Source of the DNA: Planctomycetota bacterium
GTDB taxonomy: Bacteria > Planctomycetota > Planctomycetia > Pirellulales > Pirellulaceae
DNA length: 34,845 nt
Direction: 5' to 3'
Assembly: GCA_024276655.1 (NCBI GenBank)
Contig: JAJRWU010000174.1
Coordinates: 1-34,845, forward strand
Shown here: in pieces, positions 382 to 28,983 of the stretch
Layout: the number at the start of each line of letters is the position of its first letter
Position numbering within the stretch: the first letter of the stretch is position 1
Translations under genes and position numbers: made by a program
Notes under the pieces: model-generated
Database searches by the model: none
Told to the model about the DNA's origin: nothing
What the model saw: the letters and a program-made list of their open reading frames with translations, nothing else

Positions 382-708
382 TTGAACAACCAAGAGCGCC
401 CCGTGAGCGAAATCGAACGTCCTAAACGCCCTCCAGCAACGTCCAAGCAGGCCGCTTCGTGTCTGCCTATTGCCTTGGCGGGCACGCTGTTGGTGATGTC
501 TCTGGCTGTGCTGTTCGTACTTTCCATTGGGCTCATCGGGCCGGTGGTCGTGGTGGCGTGTCTGATGTTCGCCATGGTCGGATTCCATTATGTTGTTTGG
601 GGTTGGTGGCTGGGCGCGATGATTCAAAAGGAAGACGAGCTGGAGCAACACGACGATGAAGCGGACCGACGCGACGAAGAAAGTGGGGCGCCATGGAATT
701 CCGAATAG
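382..708 (+). CDS. small two-helix membrane protein, function unknown
   Basis: This 108-residue frame begins at a TTG (382); an in-frame GTG at 403 (protein starting VSEIERPKRP) is an equally good start, and no ATG is available. A basic N-terminus is followed by two strongly hydrophobic segments at about residues 29-52 and 55-78. The C-terminal tail is very acidic and charged (EDELEQHDDEADRRDEE), so it is probably cytoplasmic. I do not recognise a family. The gene ends seven bases before a 33-bp palindrome that may terminate it. Reality of the gene is supported by its composition and by that downstream hairpin, not by homology. Confidence 0.55.
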   Translation: MNNQERPVSEIERPKRPPATSKQAASCLPIALAGTLLVMSLAVLFVLSIGLIGPVVVVACLMFAMVGFHYVVWGWWLGAMIQKEDELEQHDDEADRRDEESGAPWNSE

Positions 709-714
709 ACTCCA

Positions 715-747
715 AGAAGCCCGGCTTTTTGAAAAAGCCGGGCTTCT
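715..747. terminator. 33-bp dispersed palindrome, copy 1 (probable terminator)
   Basis: A perfect inverted repeat: two 16-base arms (AGAAGCCCGGCTTTTT and its complement) around one G. It begins seven bases after the stop of the 382-708 gene. On either strand the GC stem is bordered by T/A runs, so it could act as a bidirectional terminator. Copies lie at 4873-4905, 7337-7369 and 10704-10736. Confidence 0.7.
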
Positions 748-799
748 GAACCGGGGCGACTGATTTTTTCTGAACGTCGTCCGAAACGATGAGGACCAC

Positions 800-2026
800 A
801 TGACCGCCCAATGGCAGCCATTACTTCACGCCGCCGTGGGCGACGTCTTTGAGCGAGTCGTTGCGATTCGCCGCCGTTTGCATGCGCATCCTGAGCCTTC
901 CGGCGAAGAGTACGACACCAGCTTGTACCTGTACCAGCTGTTGGATTCGTGCGGTTTTCACGTTCGCATGGGGCCGGAAGGCGTGGGAGTTTTGACCGAG
1001 TTGCGCTCGCCCGCCCAGCCAAACGCCGCTCGTTGCATCGCATTGCGAGCCGATATCGACGCCTTGCGGATTCACGAGGAAAACGACTCGCCGTATCGGA
1101 GTCAAACTCCGGGAATCATGCATGCTTGCGGGCACGACGCCCATACGGCGGTCGTGATGGGCGCCTTGCTGGCCTTGCGGCGTCTGGGAGAGGGCGGAAA
1201 TCTGCCGTATCCGATTCATGCGAGGGGCATTTTCCAGCCGGCGGAAGAAACTTGCGAAGGCGCTTGTCGGATGATCGAAGTGGGCGCGATCGAAGGGGCT
1301 GATGTCATTCTCTCGACGCACGTCGACCCCACTCGAACGGTCGGTCAGATCGGTTTTCGCACCGGCGCGCTGACCGCGAATTGCGATGAAATGCGGATCG
1401 TGATCGATGGCCGCGGCGGCCACGCGGCGCGTCCTCACGAAACTTCCGACCCTATCGCGGCGGCGGCGCAGTTGATCAACGCGCTTTATTTGTTTGTGCC
1501 CCGCGCCACCGACAGCCAGGAAGCGGTCGTGGTTACGATCGCTCAGGTGTTGGCCGGCCACAACGCGAACGTGATTCCCGAGCGGGTTGAATTGCGAGGC
1601 ACCTTGCGAACACTCAACTCGAAAGTGCGCGAACAAACGATGGCGCATGTGCGGCATTTGTCGGCCAGCGTGGCGAATATGTCGCAGACGCGTATTGAAA
1701 CGGTTTTTTCTCGCTCTTGCCGATCGGTGGTCAACGATGGCGCGATGATCGAACTGCTGCGCGCCGCCGCCCAACCGGTTGTTGGCGGAAACGGCCTGCA
1801 AAATATCGCCCAGCCGAGTATGGGAAGCGAAGATTTTGCCTTCTATCTGGCGCATACGCCCGGCGCCATGATTCGCTTGGGCTGCGCCGCAGACAGCCAA
1901 ACCGCCTCGCCTCTGCACAGCCCCACGTTCGAAATCGATGAACGTTGCTTGGCGATTGGCGCCGAAATTTTGGCGGGCGCCGTGTTGCGTTGGTCCGACC
2001 CTCAAGCATCGAACGGCAACGAATAA
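800..2026 (+). CDS. M20-family metallo-amidohydrolase (amidohydrolase / N-acyl-amino-acid hydrolase type)
   Basis: A 408-residue protein of the M20D group, which hydrolyses N-acyl or N-conjugated amino acids using a two-metal centre. Visible metal-site motifs are HACGHDAH (Cys110, His112), the QPAEE pair (Glu149-Glu150) and STHVDP (His174). The lid-domain motif GRGGHAARPHETSDPIAAA and the late GSEDFAFYL and a His in PLHSPTFEID are also in place. Length is usual for the family and there is no signal peptide, so it should be cytoplasmic. The start at ATG 800 has GAGGA seven bases upstream. The exact substrate cannot be read from sequence; hippurate, indole-acetyl and acyl-amino-acid hydrolases share these motifs. 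It is followed after 20 bases by the ybdK-like ligase in the same direction, so the two may be cotranscribed. Confidence 0.9.
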   Translation: MTAQWQPLLHAAVGDVFERVVAIRRRLHAHPEPSGEEYDTSLYLYQLLDSCGFHVRMGPEGVGVLTELRSPAQPNAARCIALRADIDALRIHEENDSPYRSQTPGIMHACGHDAHTAVVMGALLALRRLGEGGNLPYPIHARGIFQPAEETCEGACRMIEVGAIEGADVILSTHVDPTRTVGQIGFRTGALTANCDEMRIVIDGRGGHAARPHETSDPIAAAAQLINALYLFVPRATDSQEAVVVTIAQVLAGHNANVIPERVELRGTLRTLNSKVREQTMAHVRHLSASVANMSQTRIETVFSRSCRSVVNDGAMIELLRAAAQPVVGGNGLQNIAQPSMGSEDFAFYLAHTPGAMIRLGCAADSQTASPLHSPTFEIDERCLAIGAEILAGAVLRWSDPQASNGNE

Positions 2027-2046
2027 ATCTCGCAGGAGTGCTCCTG

Positions 2047-3168
2047 ATGGAAAAGCTCATCTTCCATGGCAGTGCGGAGCCGACGCTCGGCATCGAACTA
2101 GAATTCGGCTTGGTCGACGCCCGCACGATGGCGCTCTCTAGTTCGATTGACGCCCTGCTGCGCGACCTGCCGCAAGACGTCGTTTTCCTCAAACCGGAAT
2201 TGATGCAGTGCTGCATCGAAATCAATACCGATATTTGCCACACGGTGGGTGAGGCGGAAGCCGATCTTCGCCGAAAAATCGCGATCGTGGAACAGGCGAC
2301 CGACAATCTCGGCTTGCGGCTTTGGTGGGGCGCCACGCACCCTTTCTCCCTGTGGCAAAACCAAAAGATCACCCAGACCGAACGCTACCTCGACTTGGTC
2401 AGCCTGTTGCAAGAAATGGCTCGGCGGCTGGTTACCTTCGGTTTGCATATTCACGTGGGCGTCGATTCCGGCGACAAAGCCGTGATGATCTGCGACCGCA
2501 TCATGCAGCATCTGCCGACCTTGCTCTCGCTCAGTTGCAGCAGCCCCTTCTGGGAGCGGCGCAACACGGGCCTGCATTCGCATCGCTCGAAAATCATGGA
2601 GGGTTTGCCAACCGCCGGCCTGCCCACGCTGATGCGCAACTGGAGCGAATATGTGTGGCTGGTCAACCACATGGTGGGCACCGGTTTTATCAATACCATT
2701 CGGGAAATATGGTGGGATGTTCGGCCGCATCACAACTTCGGCACCGTTGAGTTGCGTGTCTGCGACATGCCGGGTAATCTTGACGACGTGCTCGTCATCG
2801 CGGCGTTAACGCAAAGCCTGGTCAAGGCTCTTTCCGACGACATCGACCACGGCGCCTACCAGCACGACTGCCATCCGATGATGGTGCGGCAAAACAAATG
2901 GCGGGCCTGCCGATTCGGCGTGCAGGCCGAACTGGTCGATTCGTACACCTATAAAGTTCAGCCCGTGAAGCAAATTGTGTCTGGGTTGGTGGACCGACTT
3001 TCCGACTCCGCCGCCGAACTTGGCTGCCGGGAATATTTGCTCGCCGCCAACGAACTCGCCCAGCGGCCAAGTTGGGCCGACCGCCAACGGCAAATACTCT
3101 CCGACACCGGCAGCGCCGCCGAAGTGGTGCGCCAACTCACGGCGGCGTCGAGAATTAGTTCTGGTTAG
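2047..3168 (+). CDS. ybdK: YbdK-type carboxylate-amine ligase (glutamate-cysteine ligase GCS2 family)
   Basis: The start chosen is ATG 2047, preceded by CAGGAG at about nine bases. A longer in-frame extension overlapping the upstream gene is unlikely. The resulting 373 residues match the usual length of the YbdK/GCS2 family. N-terminal TLGIELEFGLVD is the family's ATP-grasp-like glutamate-binding start (GxExE). Further family features are LWWGATHPFSLW, the HIHVGVDSGDKAV segment and the FGTVELRVCDMPG motif near residue 230. Members make gamma-glutamyl or similar amide bonds with ATP; E. coli YbdK has weak glutamate-cysteine ligase activity. The true substrate here is unknown. The protein is cytoplasmic and probably cotranscribed with the M20 hydrolase upstream. 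Confidence 0.88.
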   Translation: MEKLIFHGSAEPTLGIELEFGLVDARTMALSSSIDALLRDLPQDVVFLKPELMQCCIEINTDICHTVGEAEADLRRKIAIVEQATDNLGLRLWWGATHPFSLWQNQKITQTERYLDLVSLLQEMARRLVTFGLHIHVGVDSGDKAVMICDRIMQHLPTLLSLSCSSPFWERRNTGLHSHRSKIMEGLPTAGLPTLMRNWSEYVWLVNHMVGTGFINTIREIWWDVRPHHNFGTVELRVCDMPGNLDDVLVIAALTQSLVKALSDDIDHGAYQHDCHPMMVRQNKWRACRFGVQAELVDSYTYKVQPVKQIVSGLVDRLSDSAAELGCREYLLAANELAQRPSWADRQRQILSDTGSAAEVVRQLTAASRISSG

Positions 3169-3216
3169 AATGGTTCATTCACACGCCCAAAGTCAAAACT
3201 AAACGAGAATCGTCGC

Positions 3217-4872: not shown

Positions 4873-4905
4873 AAAAGCCCGGCATTTTGAAAATGCCGGG
4901 CTTTT
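4873..4905. terminator. 33-bp dispersed palindrome, copy 2
   Basis: Perfect 16-base arms (AAAAGCCCGGCATTTT and complement) around one G, 36 bases after the sulfatase stop. It differs from copy 1 at paired positions on both arms, so the stem is preserved by compensating changes. Confidence 0.65.
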
Positions 4906-5275
4906 ATACCGCTCTCGGTTGAAAATGACACTTTTTCATATTACGACAAGCCGAAGGCGGCTGCGTTTTTTCCTTGGCCGGCCGCGTGACGTATAACTCG
5001 GCAAATTCTCATCCGCCGCTCGCCGTATCCTTATAGCTTCCAGGAGATGAAACCAAATACGCCTACCCTCAGCCTTGCTCGCATCTGAAAAACACGGAAT
5101 AGTTCTTGGACAGGTTCTAACGCCTTTGCTGGTTATTGCAGGTCGGCCAGCAAACATCGAAACGCCTCTCGCATAATTGCCGAGCAAACCCAGAATTGCT
5201 TTTTGCGCGAATTACAATAGAGACATGCCGGCGAACGCTTTCGTCTGCTGGATCTAAACACGCGAATGAGAGGCC
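4906..5275. other. intergenic stretch without recognisable gene
   Basis: About 370 bases separate palindrome copy 2 from the next start codon. A short reverse-strand frame exists (4936-5187) but has no recognisable motif and a composition unlike its neighbours. The stretch probably holds the promoter of the transglutaminase-like gene, but I cannot point to a convincing -35/-10 pair. Confidence 0.5.
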
Positions 5276-7336: not shown

Positions 7337-7369
7337 AGAAGCCCGGCATTTTCAAAATGCCGGGCTTCT
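7337..7369. terminator. 33-bp dispersed palindrome, copy 3, between convergent genes
   Basis: Perfect 16-base arms (AGAAGCCCGGCATTTT and complement) around one C. It lies in the 102-base gap between the plus-strand gene ending at 7301 and the minus-strand gene ending at 7404, the expected place for a bidirectional terminator. Confidence 0.75.
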
Positions 7370-10656: not shown

Positions 10657-10703
10657 AAGACGGTTCGCCTCCAGGTATCCAAAATAACGGCGTTATACGG
10701 CTT

Positions 10704-10736
10704 AGAAGCCCGGCTTTTTGAAAAAGCCGGGCTTCT
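10704..10736. repeat. 33-bp dispersed palindrome, copy 4
   Basis: Sequence of the core is the same as copy 1 (AGAAGCCCGGCTTTTT arms, central G). Unlike the other copies it lies upstream of a gene start (minus-strand gene starting at 10656), so it does not terminate any gene visible here, unless one once present to the right has decayed. Confidence 0.65.
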
Positions 10737-16148: not shown

Positions 16149-18545
16149 TTACTGAACTTCATGGTAGCGAGTTCGTTCGCGCATCACGGCGATCGCCAGT
16201 TGACCAGCAGCCAGTCCACCGTCGTTGGGCGGAATCCGGCCGGGCGCCTTGAGTCGATCCCGATCGTCCAACATCTCCACGACTAACTCCACCAGCAGCT
16301 TATTTTGGAATACACCTCCAGCCAGAACAATCGGCAACTCGGGATACTGAGCGGCGACGGCCACGATTCCGCTTGCCAACGCTCTGTGAAAGCGAGTACT
16401 TATCACGGCCGGACTTACGCCAGCGAGCCGCTCCTGCCAGATCTTGCGAATCATCGCTCGCCAATCCAGCCGCCCCTCGTTGAATGGAAGAGGGTAGCTT
16501 GCTGGTTCTTTCGAGGAGGCCACAGATTCCAGCATCATGGCAGCTTGTCCTTCGTACGAAATCAGATCCAATCCGAAGATAATCGCAGCGACGCCGTCAA
16601 ACAAACGCCCGACACTGGTCGATGAGATCGAGTTGATTCGGGCGGACTGCATTTGGAGCAGTGACGCGACTGGCTGGTCCTCCCAAACCGAGACGGCGTC
16701 TTGGAGCCACTGCTTATTGGAGAACGATTGGGAGAGTAGCGAGACAGCAAGGCGCCAGGGCTGGCGAATCGCCGCTTCGCCGCCAAGACACGAAAATGCT
16801 CTCAGGTGTGCGACTCGCTGGAACTGTGTTGCACCCTCAACAACCAAGAATTCCCCGCCCCACATCGTACCATCGTCTCCCAGACCCGTCCCATCCCAGC
16901 TGACTCCGAGTACCTCGCGGTTCAGCAAATCGTGCTCCAACATGCCGGCCGCAACGTGGGCGAAGTGATGTTGCAGACCTGAGTTCATGGCGCCACAATC
17001 GTTTCCATATCGCGTTGTGAAATAATCGGGATGCAGGTCATGAACGCCGGACTCTGGTTTGAAGCGATAGAGCGACTGCATATCTGCAACGTGCGCCGCA
17101 AATCGCTCTCGCGTCGCCACGGTGTCAAGGTCGCCGATGTGCGGACCGAGAACCGCCTGCGAACCGTTGTGCCAGGCGATGGCGGATTTCATGTGTCCAC
17201 CGAACGCGACACGCGGCTTTGCCGCCGGAAGAGCAAGCGGCAGCGGCGCCATGCCACGTCCTAATCGCAACGTCATGCAACGTCCCGCGACGACTTGGAC
17301 AACGCTGTCATCAATGGGCCGCGCGATGGGCCGATCGTGGTGCAGCCACAGATCGGCAATTCCAGTCAAGTTGGCGTGTGCAGCTCGTACGTCATACTCA
17401 AGAGGTTCGCCTTCTCGGTTTGCGCTCGTACATACGATTGGTTTCCCCATTTCCTCGCACAGCATCGCATGTAGAGGCGTCGATGGTAGCATTAGTCCAA
17501 GCTTGTTCAGATGAGGATGAACCGAGGCCGCAATGTCGCTGGATCTAGGCTCTGTCCCTGAACTCGTAGCTACGCTCGCCAGAGCGTGGATTTCCGCCGC
17601 CTGGCGACGGCGGCTACTTCGAGTTTCGGAGTTTAGGGACAGAGTCTGTAGGAGCACAATTGGATTCGAGCGATCTGTCAATGCTGCAGCTTCCCGAGCG
17701 TTGATGACCGCGTGATGCCGGGCTGCTTCAAGCGAGGCGACCAGGACGGCGAACGGCTTGGCCGGCCGTGCTTTGCGTTCTCGCAAGCGGTCGACCGCCC
17801 GCGGGCTTGTCGCGTCGCATAGCAATTGGTACCCGCCGACTCCGCGGAGAGCAACAATCTTGCCAGCAAGCAACCAGCGAGCAGCGGACTGCACGGCGGC
17901 AAGACCCGTTTCCAACCGCTGTCCCGCGACATCAGCGAGCCACACCTGCGGGCCGCATTCCTTGCAAGCAACTGTTTGTGCGTGAAACCGCCGATCGGTC
18001 GACGACGTATCATCCGCCTGGCAGTCGACGCACAACGTGAAAGGTCCCATCGTCGTATCGGACCGCTCGAACGGCATGCGTTCAATCAGCGAGAATCTCG
18101 GACCGCACGTCGAGCATGTGGTCAGCGCGTACAGGTGTCTGCGATCGCCTGGGTCGTGAACCTCCGCCAAACAGTCATTACATACGGCAACATCACGAGG
18201 AACTTGAGTTACCAGCGGACCGGTCGCATCGTCACGCTCGATCACAAAGCCCGATTGATGCGAGGGAGCGATAGCGACAACTTCGATTTGCCGGGCGGCC
18301 GCTCCATCCGGCAATGAAGTCGGGAGACGCTTTTGAAAGGTGGTTATTTGGTGCGGCGCTCCCGCGACTTCGATCTCCAGACCAGCCAAGGTGTTTCTCA
18401 CGGAGCCGCTCAGATCGAGCGACGTCGCCAAACGTACGACTGCTGGGCGCACCCCCAAACCTTGCACACATCCAGACAGGGAGATGCGAGCGGCAACGGG
18501 CGAAGCAGGATTCTCAGTGCTGGTCGGATTCAGAAAACGCATCAC
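16149..18545 (-). CDS. hypF: carbamoyltransferase HypF with an in-frame repeat insertion
   Basis: A 798-residue HypF starting at GTG 18545 or the adjacent ATG 18542. It moves a carbamoyl group from carbamoyl phosphate to HypE. Domains in order: acylphosphatase-like (SGCVQGLGVRPAVVRLA), zinc fingers (CNDCLAEV, TTCSTCGPRFS, CVDCQ, CKECGP), YrdC-like nucleotide-binding (about 220-410), and Kae1-like carbamoyltransferase (DLHPDYFTTRYG, QHHFAHVAAGM, SWDGTGLGDDGTMWGGE). Between SNPIVLL and SDIAASVHPHLNKLG lie about 33 extra residues (300-333) encoded by a 99-bp repeat element, so the YrdC domain is interrupted without loss of frame. Whether the enzyme stays active is unknown. The first 32 bases overlap the end of the RAYT gene. 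Confidence 0.95.
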   Translation of the reverse strand: MMRFLNPTSTENPASPVAARISLSGCVQGLGVRPAVVRLATSLDLSGSVRNTLAGLEIEVAGAPHQITTFQKRLPTSLPDGAAARQIEVVAIAPSHQSGFVIERDDATGPLVTQVPRDVAVCNDCLAEVHDPGDRRHLYALTTCSTCGPRFSLIERMPFERSDTTMGPFTLCVDCQADDTSSTDRRFHAQTVACKECGPQVWLADVAGQRLETGLAAVQSAARWLLAGKIVALRGVGGYQLLCDATSPRAVDRLRERKARPAKPFAVLVASLEAARHHAVINAREAAALTDRSNPIVLLQTLSLNSETRSSRRRQAAEIHALASVATSSGTEPRSSDIAASVHPHLNKLGLMLPSTPLHAMLCEEMGKPIVCTSANREGEPLEYDVRAAHANLTGIADLWLHHDRPIARPIDDSVVQVVAGRCMTLRLGRGMAPLPLALPAAKPRVAFGGHMKSAIAWHNGSQAVLGPHIGDLDTVATRERFAAHVADMQSLYRFKPESGVHDLHPDYFTTRYGNDCGAMNSGLQHHFAHVAAGMLEHDLLNREVLGVSWDGTGLGDDGTMWGGEFLVVEGATQFQRVAHLRAFSCLGGEAAIRQPWRLAVSLLSQSFSNKQWLQDAVSVWEDQPVASLLQMQSARINSISSTSVGRLFDGVAAIIFGLDLISYEGQAAMMLESVASSKEPASYPLPFNEGRLDWRAMIRKIWQERLAGVSPAVISTRFHRALASGIVAVAAQYPELPIVLAGGVFQNKLLVELVVEMLDDRDRLKAPGRIPPNDGGLAAGQLAIAVMRERTRYHEVQ
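17548..17646 (-). repeat. 99-bp REP-type element inside hypF
   Basis: The element has imperfect terminal inverted repeats (GGCTCTGTCCCTGAAC and the complement of GTTTAGGGACAGAGTC). Inside are the two REP hairpins, one around CTCTGGCGAG and one around a GCCGTC/GGCGGC stem. Its reverse complement aligns end to end with the element at 28810-28908, same length. It is translated within hypF. Confidence 0.85.
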
Positions 18546-19257
18546 TCACAACTCCGGTGCAACGCTCATATTCACCTCCGTAGCTACCGTCGCCAGACGG
18601 TGGACGGTGGACGGTGGATGGTGGATGGAACTGCGATGCGATTCCGCTGCCCGCAACAGAGCCACGCTCTGGCGAGTACGGATTCAACTTTTCATTGGCT
18701 GGACGAAATAAACCATTTCTCCTCAAGAACGAATGCGTTCGCCAGAATCGGCTCCAAAAGTCGTCACCCCACAATGACAAGTCCGGGTGACCCGGAATCA
18801 GGCAACCCGTGAACTTGTATTCTCGAAACGCGTCAACTGGCACAAGTTGTTTCCGTTCCGGATTGCGAGCGATGTATTCCACGAGATTTTCGACCGCCGT
18901 TTCTAATCGTTCGTCGTTGCGTAACACGTGATCGTGTGGCTGGTGCTGGAATTCATAACCGAGTCTATTCAGTGGTTCACCCAATTGTTTGCGAAAATAC
19001 TTACTCGCCTTCAGTTGGTCTGTTTGGTCATCGATTCCGATCCACAACCTATGGATGTGATCCGGCATGAGGCAGAAGATGGGACAAGCGAATGCGTATC
19101 GAAATGCGGCATGTGTGAGCAGTTCGCGGAACTTGTAGTTGAAAGCTGGAATTAACCAACCGGTACGACAGTCTTCAATCGTGAAGGTCCAGTGAACGTA
19201 AGCTTGTCCGCGATAGAATTCGGGTTCCAATCGAGGGAGGTGTCCTTTCTTTATCAT
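18514..19257 (-). CDS. rayt: REP-associated tyrosine transposase (RAYT, Y1/HUH family)
   Basis: A 247-residue IS200-like Y1 transposase of the RAYT group, which cut single-stranded DNA and are linked to REP sequences. The HUH motif is CLMPDHIHRLW (His67, His69) and the catalytic Tyr is probably Tyr128 in NLVEYIARNP. The RAYT-typical end DFWSRFWRTHSFLRRNG is present. All catalytic residues seem intact. The last 40 or so residues (from about PPSTVHRPPSGDG) are encoded by a REP copy, and the stop lies inside the start of hypF. REP pairs lie on both sides of the gene. It interrupts hypB-hypF in the operon and faces the same way, so it may be transcribed with it. Confidence 0.88.
   Translation of the reverse strand: MIKKGHLPRLEPEFYRGQAYVHWTFTIEDCRTGWLIPAFNYKFRELLTHAAFRYAFACPIFCLMPDHIHRLWIGIDDQTDQLKASKYFRKQLGEPLNRLGYEFQHQPHDHVLRNDERLETAVENLVEYIARNPERKQLVPVDAFREYKFTGCLIPGHPDLSLWGDDFWSRFWRTHSFLRRNGLFRPANEKLNPYSPERGSVAGSGIASQFHPPSTVHRPPSGDGSYGGEYERCTGVVSDAFSESDQH
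18579..18680. repeat. REP pair at the RAYT 3' end
   Basis: Left unit CGTAGCTACCGTCGCCAGAC... at 18579-18603 (stem ACCGTC/GACGGT), right unit 18662-18680 around CACGCTCTGGCGAG, partly degenerate. The spacer begins with four 7-base tandem units (TGGACGG twice, TGGATGG twice, 18601-18628). It is translated as the C-terminus of the RAYT protein. Confidence 0.8.
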
Positions 19258-19282: not shown

Positions 19283-19376
19283 CGTAGCTACCGTCGCCAG
19301 ACGGTGGCCCTCGAGTTTAAACGTTCTATTTCTGGTGGTTCGCCATACGGTCCACGCTCTGGCGAGCGTAGCTACG
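19283..19376. repeat. REP pair at the RAYT 5' side
   Basis: Left unit 19283-19307 and right unit 19352-19376. Outer ends CGTAGCTAC and GTAGCTACG pair, with inner hairpins ACCGTC-gcca-GACGGT and CGCTC-tggc-GAGCG. It fills the gap between RAYT start (19257) and hypB stop (19381). Confidence 0.85.
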
Positions 19377-24224: not shown

Positions 24225-24324
24225 CGTAGCCACCGTCGCCAGACGGTGGAACATCCACGCTCTGGCGAGCGTAGCCACCGTCGCCAGACGGTGGAACGTC
24301 CACGCTCTGGCGAGCGTAGCTACG
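24225..24324. repeat. tandem REP array between the cNMP-binding gene and hydB
   Basis: Two 45-base units in tandem (CGTAGCCACCGTCGCCAGAC... at 24225 and 24270), each with both REP hairpins, then a closing CGTAGCTACG. The units differ by one base in the joint (AACAT versus AACGT). Nearly the whole gap 24181-24330 is repeat sequence. Confidence 0.88.
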
Positions 24325-24330
24325 GGTAGG

Positions 24331-27457: not shown

Positions 27458-28119
27458 CCAACGTCTCCATCAAGAGCCAGCGTCTGCGACAGCAGATCGT
27501 CAAACCGTTGTCGTCCAGCCGACTCGTCAAGCCTTGTCCAGCGATCAACAATTTCCCAGCGAGCCAAGTACAGCAGGATGGTCTCGAACGAAAAATAGAA
27601 CTTGTCGGCAAGCTTCACCCAGCGATCCCATGTCGCACTCAATAGCTGCCGCTCTACTTCCAGGGGTTGGTTGGCATCCAGAGTTTCACGCACGCGAGGA
27701 ATCCACGGATGCTCCCGGGCCAAACGAAAATCGGGGTGATGCCAATGTTTGCGGATGCGCCCAACGTACTGTCCGACGGCGGATGGTGGTCCAAGTCCAA
27801 GTCGCCGCCGGCGCAACGCACAAGTAATCGTGCGAACGTCCATGCGATGATTGATGATGTCGCGGACCAGCTTGTTCGTGATTGAGTTCATCAACCAGTC
27901 ATATTCACGTTTTACTTCCTCGTCGGTGCGTTCTGGTCGTTGCCGGTCCCAAAGCAAAAAACCCTGCACCTGTTCGACAATGCTCTTATCCTGTGCTCCG
28001 AGCATCTTCAAACGCTGCTCAAGACGAATCCGCAAAATCGGCGCCTGCTCGACATCAAACGACCGAGGCATGTGCGGCAGGCTGGCGACGAGCCAATAGT
28101 AGTTGGTGGATGTCGTCAC
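27454..28119 (-). CDS. DUF2764 protein, V-ATPase-associated (possible subunit C/d substitute)
   Basis: A 221-residue protein starting at GTG 28119, overlapping the E stop as GTGA. It begins NYYWLVASLPHMPRSFD, typical of DUF2764 proteins encoded between V-ATPase E and A genes in chlamydiae, Bacteroidetes and planctomycetes. It is largely helical, without membrane segments. No classic subunit C/d gene is present in the window, so it may fill that stator/axle-cap role; this is inference from position and helical character. Confidence 0.8.
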   Translation of the reverse strand: MTTSTNYYWLVASLPHMPRSFDVEQAPILRIRLEQRLKMLGAQDKSIVEQVQGFLLWDRQRPERTDEEVKREYDWLMNSITNKLVRDIINHRMDVRTITCALRRRRLGLGPPSAVGQYVGRIRKHWHHPDFRLAREHPWIPRVRETLDANQPLEVERQLLSATWDRWVKLADKFYFSFETILLYLARWEIVDRWTRLDESAGRQRFDDLLSQTLALDGDVG

Positions 28120-28784
28120 TGAATGATTCCTTCCATGATGGCTCGGAATCGCGGGACCAAATGGCGCAGCAGCAACTCCCCGATGGCTTGATCGGTCAGT
28201 TCAATCTCGATGTCATCCTCTTGCAGTTGAATGCGGATGCCCGTTAAGTTTTCGTCCGTCGTTCCGATTACGAGTCCTTCGCGCAGCATGTCTTTCGTTA
28301 CTGTGGCGACGAAATGGCTGAGCGTACCTTCTTTCACTTCCTCCGGATCGCGGCGCAGTTGCTCCAAGCCTACAACATCCTCGGGTAGAAGCAGTTTGGC
28401 GGGCTGGCCGGTAGACGGCGCCGAGCGACCGCCGACTTCGAGAATCAACTGTTTCAGAAAATCGCCGTCCTCCAGCTCTCGTGTTACCAGACGACGGACT
28501 CGATCGGCGAACTGATCCACCATTTCCGACTTGAGCCTGAGTATCGCGTCGCGCACGGCCAGTTGCACGGCCTCCTCACCGGCCCGCTTCGTCTGGGCGG
28601 CTTCCTCGCGCGCCTGCTGCAACAAGGTATCTGCCTCGCGTCTCGCATCGTCAAGACGTTGTTCCGCGCGCAGCCGTGTTTGCTCCATGAGCTCATCCGC
28701 TTCGGCCTTGCCTTCCTCAACGCCCTGCTGACGCAGGCGACCGATCAGTTCCTCAACGCCGGACGATTCCTTCGCATTGGCCAT
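28116..28784 (-). CDS. atpE: V-type ATPase peripheral-stalk subunit E
   Basis: A 222-residue subunit. Residues 1-100 are a charged heptad-rich helix (KAEADELMEQTRLRAEQRLDD and similar), the stalk coiled coil. The C-terminal part is a globular domain ending VPRFRAIMEGIIQ. It links head and membrane part. It overlaps the DUF2764 start. Upstream lies a 218-base gap filled with repeat elements. Confidence 0.85.
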   Translation of the reverse strand: MANAKESSGVEELIGRLRQQGVEEGKAEADELMEQTRLRAEQRLDDARREADTLLQQAREEAAQTKRAGEEAVQLAVRDAILRLKSEMVDQFADRVRRLVTRELEDGDFLKQLILEVGGRSAPSTGQPAKLLLPEDVVGLEQLRRDPEEVKEGTLSHFVATVTKDMLREGLVIGTTDENLTGIRIQLQEDDIEIELTDQAIGELLLRHLVPRFRAIMEGIIQ

Positions 28785-28809: not shown

Positions 28810-28908
28810 GGCTTTGTTTCTAAACTCCGAATCTCGACGTAGCTGCCGTCGCCAGACGGCGGAAATCCACGCTCTGGCGAGCGTAGCTACGACTTTAGAA
28901 ACAGAGCC
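28810..28908. repeat. 99-bp REP-type element between V-ATPase K and E
   Basis: Same element as inside hypF, opposite orientation on the plus strand. Termini GGCTTTGTTTCTAAAC and GACTTTAGAAACAGAGCC are imperfect inverted repeats; the inner stem GCCGTC-gcca-GACGGC differs from other copies by a compensated base pair. Confidence 0.85.
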
Positions 28909-28910
28909 TA

Positions 28911-28983
28911 GTTTAACGGCAAGCCGCAGGCGACTTCTCTTCCGTTTTGACGAAACATCCTCGCCTGCGGTTTGCCGTTAAAC
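28911..28983. repeat. 23-bp inverted repeat (GTTTAACGGCAAGCCGCAGG type)
   Basis: Arms 28911-28933 and 28961-28983 match with one mismatch, around a 27-base loop. It directly abuts the 99-bp element and lies 20 bases after the V-ATPase K stop on the minus strand, so it could attenuate transcription into E. Confidence 0.75.

Follow-up and report, generated by a model that had tools for sequence, protein, structure and literature searches.

In-frame insertions of REPs and of Rickettsia palindromic elements (RPEs) have already been published. In the sections of Di Nocera et al. (2013, PMC3733652) drawn on here, there are REPs that lie wholly within ORFs, over half of them as dimers or groups coding for 20–30 residues, and the largest number of intragenic GTAG repeats is in O. 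terrae, which belongs to the same PVC superphylum as the genome studied here. The same sections place REPs at about the same recB site in two Xanthomonas species, so insertion at a shared site has precedent; that paper's section on intragenic repeats does not mention HypF. RPEs, as presented in parts of PMC10969869 and PMC2229807, are about 105–150 bp long and fused in frame to conserved genes, and the fusion to guanylate kinase is described as neutral in a passage of PMC2229807. Repeats are also known from the hyp operon of Nostoc, where, according to the relevant part of PMC2408588, they sit between hyp genes and not inside HypF.

Here we describe a 99-bp palindromic element read in frame within hypF, by which a planctomycete metabolic enzyme joins the proteins with translated palindromic elements. 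As in the intragenic GTAG REPs described in PMC3733652, GTAG palindromes lie inside an ORF, but here the REP pair sits within extra inverted repeats. The element shares with RPEs a palindrome in frame in a conserved gene; RPEs, however, occupy many genes per genome, whereas our element was found in one long ORF only, and it is of the GTAG type, while PMC3733652 assigns RPE-4 and RPE-6 to the CGTC type. The hairpin built from an inverted REP pair, and the RAYT-like gene that adjoins the same REP, recall the REPINs and RAYTs of Bertels and Rainey (2011, PMC3116915); in the part of that paper used here REPINs are mainly extragenic, whereas the present unit carries long terminal inverted repeats beyond its REP pair and was found in only two copies. 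A length of about 100 bp and terminal inverted repeats are also traits of MITEs (background section of PMC3733652), as are the identical 3-base flanks of 24 of 33 examined copies of this genome's main REPIN-cored element (119 bp); our 99-bp pair lacks a clean target duplication. What this locus adds to the published insertions is an outer pair of inverted repeats, with HypF as the protein that receives the element. A new finding is a different dispersed palindrome that is likewise in frame at this HypF loop in one Candidatus Bipolaricaulota genome; the portions of PMC3733652, PMC10969869 and PMC2229807 considered here do not describe unrelated elements recurring at one loop across phyla.

The palindromic element within hypF

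The window, meaning the whole stretch of 34,845 bases analysed, is an entire 34.8-kb contig from a 5.96-Mb assembly of 328 contigs. The closest named relatives of its HypF indicate a planctomycete source. Its hypF gene lies within a hydrogenase and maturation cluster that includes HypD, a CobW/HypB-type GTPase, an AIRS-family (HypE-like) gene and [NiFe] hydrogenase genes. Features of hypF and of the element are as follows.

16149–18545, minus strand: hypF, carbamoyltransferase HypF, 798 amino acids (TIGR00143, E 2.2e-194, 647.7 bits against a cut-off of 466.1)
17259–17873, minus strand: YrdC-like domain of HypF, residues 225–429, which holds the insert (PF01300, E 4.9e-39)
17548–17646, minus strand: REPIN-bearing palindromic element, 99 bp, read as HypF residues 300–333 (predicted tryptic peptide of the insert: QAAEIHALASVATSSGTEPR)
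17548–17565, plus strand: left terminal inverted-repeat arm, the same as the right arm at 16 of 19 positions
17566–17589, plus strand: GTAG REP half-site 1, GTAGCTACGCTCGCCAGAGCGTGG
17594–17617, minus strand: GTAG REP half-site 2, inverted (REPIN layout), placed by sequence reading and pairing
17629–17646, minus strand: right terminal inverted-repeat arm, pairing with the left arm
28810–28908, minus strand: another complete copy of the element, in an intergenic position 25 bases ahead of the start codon of the ORF at 28116–28784 (minus strand)

Five HypF Pfam families were found in the product of 16149–18545, and the acylphosphatase, zinc-finger, YrdC-like and Kae1-like domains are all present. 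A preliminary description of this DNA had placed a 99-base REP-carrying element in frame inside hypF, within the YrdC-like domain. Both points hold: the hypF ORF stays open across 17548–17646, which is read over its whole length in the hypF frame with no stops and no frameshifts, and residues 300–333 fall inside the Pfam span of the domain. The junctions are not exact to the single base.

The unit consists, in order, of an 18-base arm, a 24-base GTAG REP, a 4-base spacer, an inverted 24-base REP, 11 bases and the second arm. The GTAG tetranucleotide stands at the foot of an imperfect palindrome (17566–17589), and the opposite orientation of the two REPs gives a single hairpin. While the complementarity of the REP-type halves was judged by eye, pairing of the whole unit was computed; as DNA, the element forms one long hairpin with z-scores against shuffles of −7.0 on the plus strand and −6.2 on the other. 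With its 99 bp and 18-base arms it lies within the size range (about 70–300 bp) and terminal-inverted-repeat architecture of MITEs.

The copy at 28810–28908 is inverted relative to that in hypF and has the same base at 87 of 99 positions without gaps (about 88–89%), whereas 2000 mononucleotide shuffles gave no more than 39 of 99, and the likeness stops abruptly at the element ends. This upholds the earlier proposal that the two are homologous and of equal length. The second copy likewise folds as a single hairpin (z −6.8 and −9.1, giving a range of −6.2 to −9.1 for both copies together). At two arm pairs the copies carry different bases on both sides, with pairing kept; as there are only two sequences, these double-sided changes show matched arms, not selection. 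Mobility similarly rests on one pair, since only two copies are known. The flanks are CTA/TGT around the hypF copy and CTG/TAG around the intergenic copy, with an identical direct repeat at neither, though with only two copies such repeats may have decayed. Target duplications of 3 bases (99 + 3 = 102, in frame) and of 4 bases (CTAG) were considered for the 99-bp unit; as neither yields identical flanks, we claim no duplication. A further inverted repeat, with GTTTAACGGCAAGCCGCAGGCGA arms, directly adjoins the intergenic copy at 28911–28983.

The element had also been described as behaving like a protein-domain-inserting mini-element, which our results do not support. In both copies stops interrupt four of the six frames, the second copy is intergenic, the insert is predicted to be disordered (see below), and the translated element was found in no long ORF other than hypF among 239 genomes of the family (E 0.001), the two remaining peptide matches lying in frames of 59 and 54 amino acids. 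The own-genome loci examined contain 42 non-redundant REP sites, a subset of all sites. A Pfam scan of ten REP-spanning ORFs, which left out other spanning ORFs in loci L008, L012, L024, L113 and L124, gave a match in two, L124 and L014, the latter falling short of its cut-off at E 5.6e-4. In neither does the matched domain contain the element, and no other REP site falls inside a recognised domain among the ORFs scanned. We found no evidence that the element is built to be protein.

Loop length and the HypF fold

HypF matches at E 1e-40 or better were found in 47 of 98 genomes (own included), the nearest HypF being about 51–54% identical; the other searched genome of the genus had none at this threshold. 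In 36 of the 47 genomes the match was split into two or three pieces that skip residues about 301–335, and in the remainder it was either one full match or partial. The N-terminal pieces stop at residues 298–309 and most next pieces start at 332–343, and in one genome (G032) the two pieces directly adjoin. Counted from TDRSNPIVLL to LHAML, the segment has 73 residues here; among 29 relatives it has 42 in 16, 39–52 in 28 and 81 in one.

Across 200 HypFs the median length of the loop is 29 residues, compared to 60 in the window HypF; 195 have 26–39 residues and five have 44–68. This set comprises the window HypF, those of 29 relatives (taken from the best 30 loci), 80 from named genomes (the best 80 of 572 confirmed stretches) and 90 from a phylum search of 392 genomes, and it may contain near-duplicates between genome collections. 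Fragmentary matches were left out of the phylum set (G487, G609, G495, G554, G567, G543, G352, G308 and the second match of G318), and five genomes already represented (G000, G018, G043, G075 and G091) were not added again. The inserted residues occur in no other HypF of the 200. Relative to HypFs of the commonest loop length the net gain is 31 codons, not the about 33 of the preliminary estimate. The event was thus not a simple addition of 99 bases to a typical loop: either the original loop lost two codons or it was shorter to begin with.

An AlphaFold2 model of the protein has a mean pLDDT of 92.8, with values below 50 only at residues 1–10 and 306–331; the YrdC blocks on either side of the insert reach 95–98, and a low-confidence helix is modelled inside it (residues 309–318). 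The fold matches HypF structures 3vti (Z 55.4, rmsd 6.5 over 733) and 3vth (Z 52.7, rmsd 1.6 over 620), and between the aligned pieces the window HypF has 36 residues where 3vth has only four. The insert is therefore predicted to be a disordered loop, presumably exposed at the surface, on an intact HypF fold. Across 59 other HypFs 78 alignment columns are invariant, and the window HypF agrees at every one of them; where identity is at least 95%, it agrees at 114 of 120 columns. In comparison with 11 nearer relatives, 150 of 157 invariant columns are kept and seven are changed, including G375A (in the TSGN motif) and T355S, both in the YrdC domain. A disordered loop on a working enzyme would be the simplest reading of the model, and of the two outcomes first envisaged, tolerance and impairment, the kept residues and the confident model around the insert favor tolerance, which we regard as predicted.

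Our data make it very probable that a mobile REPIN element inserted into a loop of hypF, where it forms a disordered extension that leaves the fold intact and is effectively neutral. A non-autonomous palindromic element, composed of a GTAG REP pair within 18-base inverted repeats, would have entered the YrdC-like domain at the loop that joins the PIVLL strand to the SVHPHLNKLG segment. The frame would have stayed open by chance of length, phase and orientation, the new residues would extend the protein without disturbing its fold, and the insertion would have persisted as effectively neutral.

Alternatively, the insert may impair HypF, leaving the hydrogenase unmatured and hypF heading to decay, as might be expected of a long insert inside a catalytic domain whose residues no other compared HypF shares, in a protein altered at seven of the 157 columns invariant among its nearer relatives. 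We consider this unlikely given that the frame is open across 798 codons, that the 78 identical columns are all kept and the YrdC blocks flanking the insert are modelled with high confidence, that the adjoining HypD spans 2–349 of the 351 positions of its Pfam profile, and that four other HypFs also carry loops of 44–68 residues. Structures of HypF have been solved and E. coli hypF deletions are commonly used, so the effect of the insert is directly testable.

Somewhat less likely still, the element may have been kept for a hairpin role in hypF mRNA, such as slowing ribosomes or protecting against decay, and not as a neutral peptide. The coding-strand RNA hairpin is predicted to be very stable (−54.8 kcal/mol, z −6.7 compared to shuffles), and the two compensatory pair changes between the copies fit such a role; translating ribosomes, however, would melt the hairpin, the changes may be explained equally well by the copying mode of palindromic mobile elements, and only two sequences stand behind the pair-change argument. 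That the residues are instead an old native variable loop, with repeat-like DNA that arose by coincidence or was copied out of hypF, is highly improbable despite the natural variation in loop length, since the DNA forms a complete REPIN bounded by inverted-repeat arms, 27 of its bases (17564–17590) are 100% complementary to a REP outside hypF on the same contig (19351–19377, beside the RAYT-like gene), the intergenic copy is 88–89% alike, and the contig's other REP sites lie outside hypF.

The RAYT-like neighbor and the distribution of REPs

If the hypF unit is a mobile REPIN element, a candidate mover lies close at hand. The remaining REP features of the contig are these.

18514–19257, minus strand: RAYT-like (REP-associated tyrosine transposase) gene, overlapping the start of hypF
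18580–18603, plus strand: REP of family D2, on the 3' side of, and within the end of, the RAYT-like ORF
19284–19375, no strand assigned: inverted REP pair of families D2 and D3, on the 5' side of the RAYT-like gene
24225–24327, no strand assigned: intergenic array of four alternating REPs of the same family

The RAYT-like ORF matches NF047646 at E 3.6e-8 (33.4 bits, under the curated cut-off of 80) and Y1_Tnp at E 0.15 only. HIH and YIARNP motifs were recognised in it by eye. It is flanked at both ends by REPs of the same family as the hypF element, and on these sequence grounds it is the obvious candidate source of the REP core in hypF, its part in any movement being putative. The mover could be this neighboring gene, recognising the REP core, or a DDE enzyme recognising the inverted repeats.

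A two-arm pattern matched one of 241 genomes of the family, namely the source genome, with two occurrences, both on this contig, and was absent from the 240 others searched; a DNA search of 98 relatives likewise gave no further full-length match to the 99-bp element. A one-arm pattern allowing two mismatches had 21 matches in the genome compared to 13 for a reversed control, and four of the 21 are the true arms. Nine other matches among those listed have no full REP beside them, as judged by eye, though one (L045) has a 12-base REP-like word. A wider family of inverted-repeat arms was accordingly rejected.

REP cores by themselves are common, and similar ones with different flanks occur in relatives. 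A loose half-site pattern matched 176 times per strand in the genome, and the 100 places listed (contigs C3 to C83) belong to a sister type. This sister type builds an abundant 119-bp REPIN-cored element, the main one of the genome, which has other ends (GCATCGAGCGG...ATCGAGCGGTGC) and was seen in own-genome loci L006–L030 and L109–L129. In the loci examined, 33 copies could be recognised at both ends, and 24 of these have identical 3-base flanks (TTA, TAA, TAG, TTG or CAA), compared to 30% for flanks of different copies, indicating that REP pairs in this genome travel within transposon-like units with target duplications. This points to a DDE-type mover for the 119-bp family, a transposon-like unit with identical flanks, whereas HUH transposition has been proposed for REPs.

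Despite a REP type unlike the genome's main one, own-genus matches and composition lead us to reject a contaminant contig. The M20 peptidase at 800–2026 is 95% identical over residues 71–408 to its counterpart in the other genome of the genus, and the DNA of window positions 512–3190 is 93–95% identical to a contig of that genome. GC is 0.571 compared to 0.575. Tetranucleotide correlation is 0.79–0.84 with pooled pieces of the own genome, slightly lower than the 0.84–0.90 among own pieces, and 0.40–0.53 with five other genomes of the family. Synteny with the other genus genome is lost at 3190, although that contig runs 6.7 kb further, with only short repeat matches beyond this point. The region 3190–34845, which holds the hydrogenase and a V/A-type ATPase, may be an accessory island. 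Another hairpin repeat, of the AAGCCCGGC...GCCGGGCTT type, occurs in four copies (715–747, 4873–4909, 7337–7369 and 10698–10736) and also on same-genus contig L142; it looks like a dispersed terminator-type repeat.

Long loops in other HypF proteins

In five HypFs this loop has at least 44 residues, and in two of them, from different phyla, the insert is a dispersed palindrome of a different family: the window HypF and that of L149, from Candidatus Bipolaricaulota. The L149 loop has 52 residues, compared to 29 in L147, which is also from Bipolaricaulota and 80% identical. It contains a 26-codon in-frame insert (L149:3850–3927) made of a different, GC-rich dispersed palindrome (z −8.3, mononucleotide shuffles), and 30 of 50 matches in its 1.7-Mb genome span all 78 bases, hypF included. 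In L295, another genome of the window's phylum, the loop (1384–1470) contains a dispersed repeat as its last 34 bases, found at 24 other places, and is not strongly palindromic (z −1.9). The loop inserts of L100 and L337 fold no better than shuffles (z 0.9 and 0.3).

Two dispersed palindromes at the same loop imply that the site is permissive and has been used at least twice independently. We tentatively suggest, as a possibility worth weighing, that the loop following the PIVLL strand serves repeatedly as a permissive slot where mobile repeats of unrelated origin become protein. Further long insertions in an alignment of 110 HypFs lie near residues 210–224, 369, 441, 537 and 692, so this loop is not the only tolerant place, and an excess of mobile repeats at it over other linkers would be conjectural. 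If the suggestion is correct, HypF would offer a natural series for measuring how protein is gained from selfish DNA; two unrelated mobile hairpins in one loop of this enzyme in different phyla suggest that survival of such insertions depends more on the host site than on the element.

The L149-type element is also found in other ORFs of its genome. Three of the five best copies outside hypF fall in ORFs, two of them long, with 744 and 692 residues (loci L224 and L225), and the third with 177 residues. Pfam gave no match in the 692- and 177-residue ORFs; in the 744-residue protein the element falls at about residues 274–300, at the end of a LUD domain (68–275) and ahead of a ferredoxin-like domain (326–399). 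Weaker peptide matches to the L149 insert occur in other long open frames of that genome.
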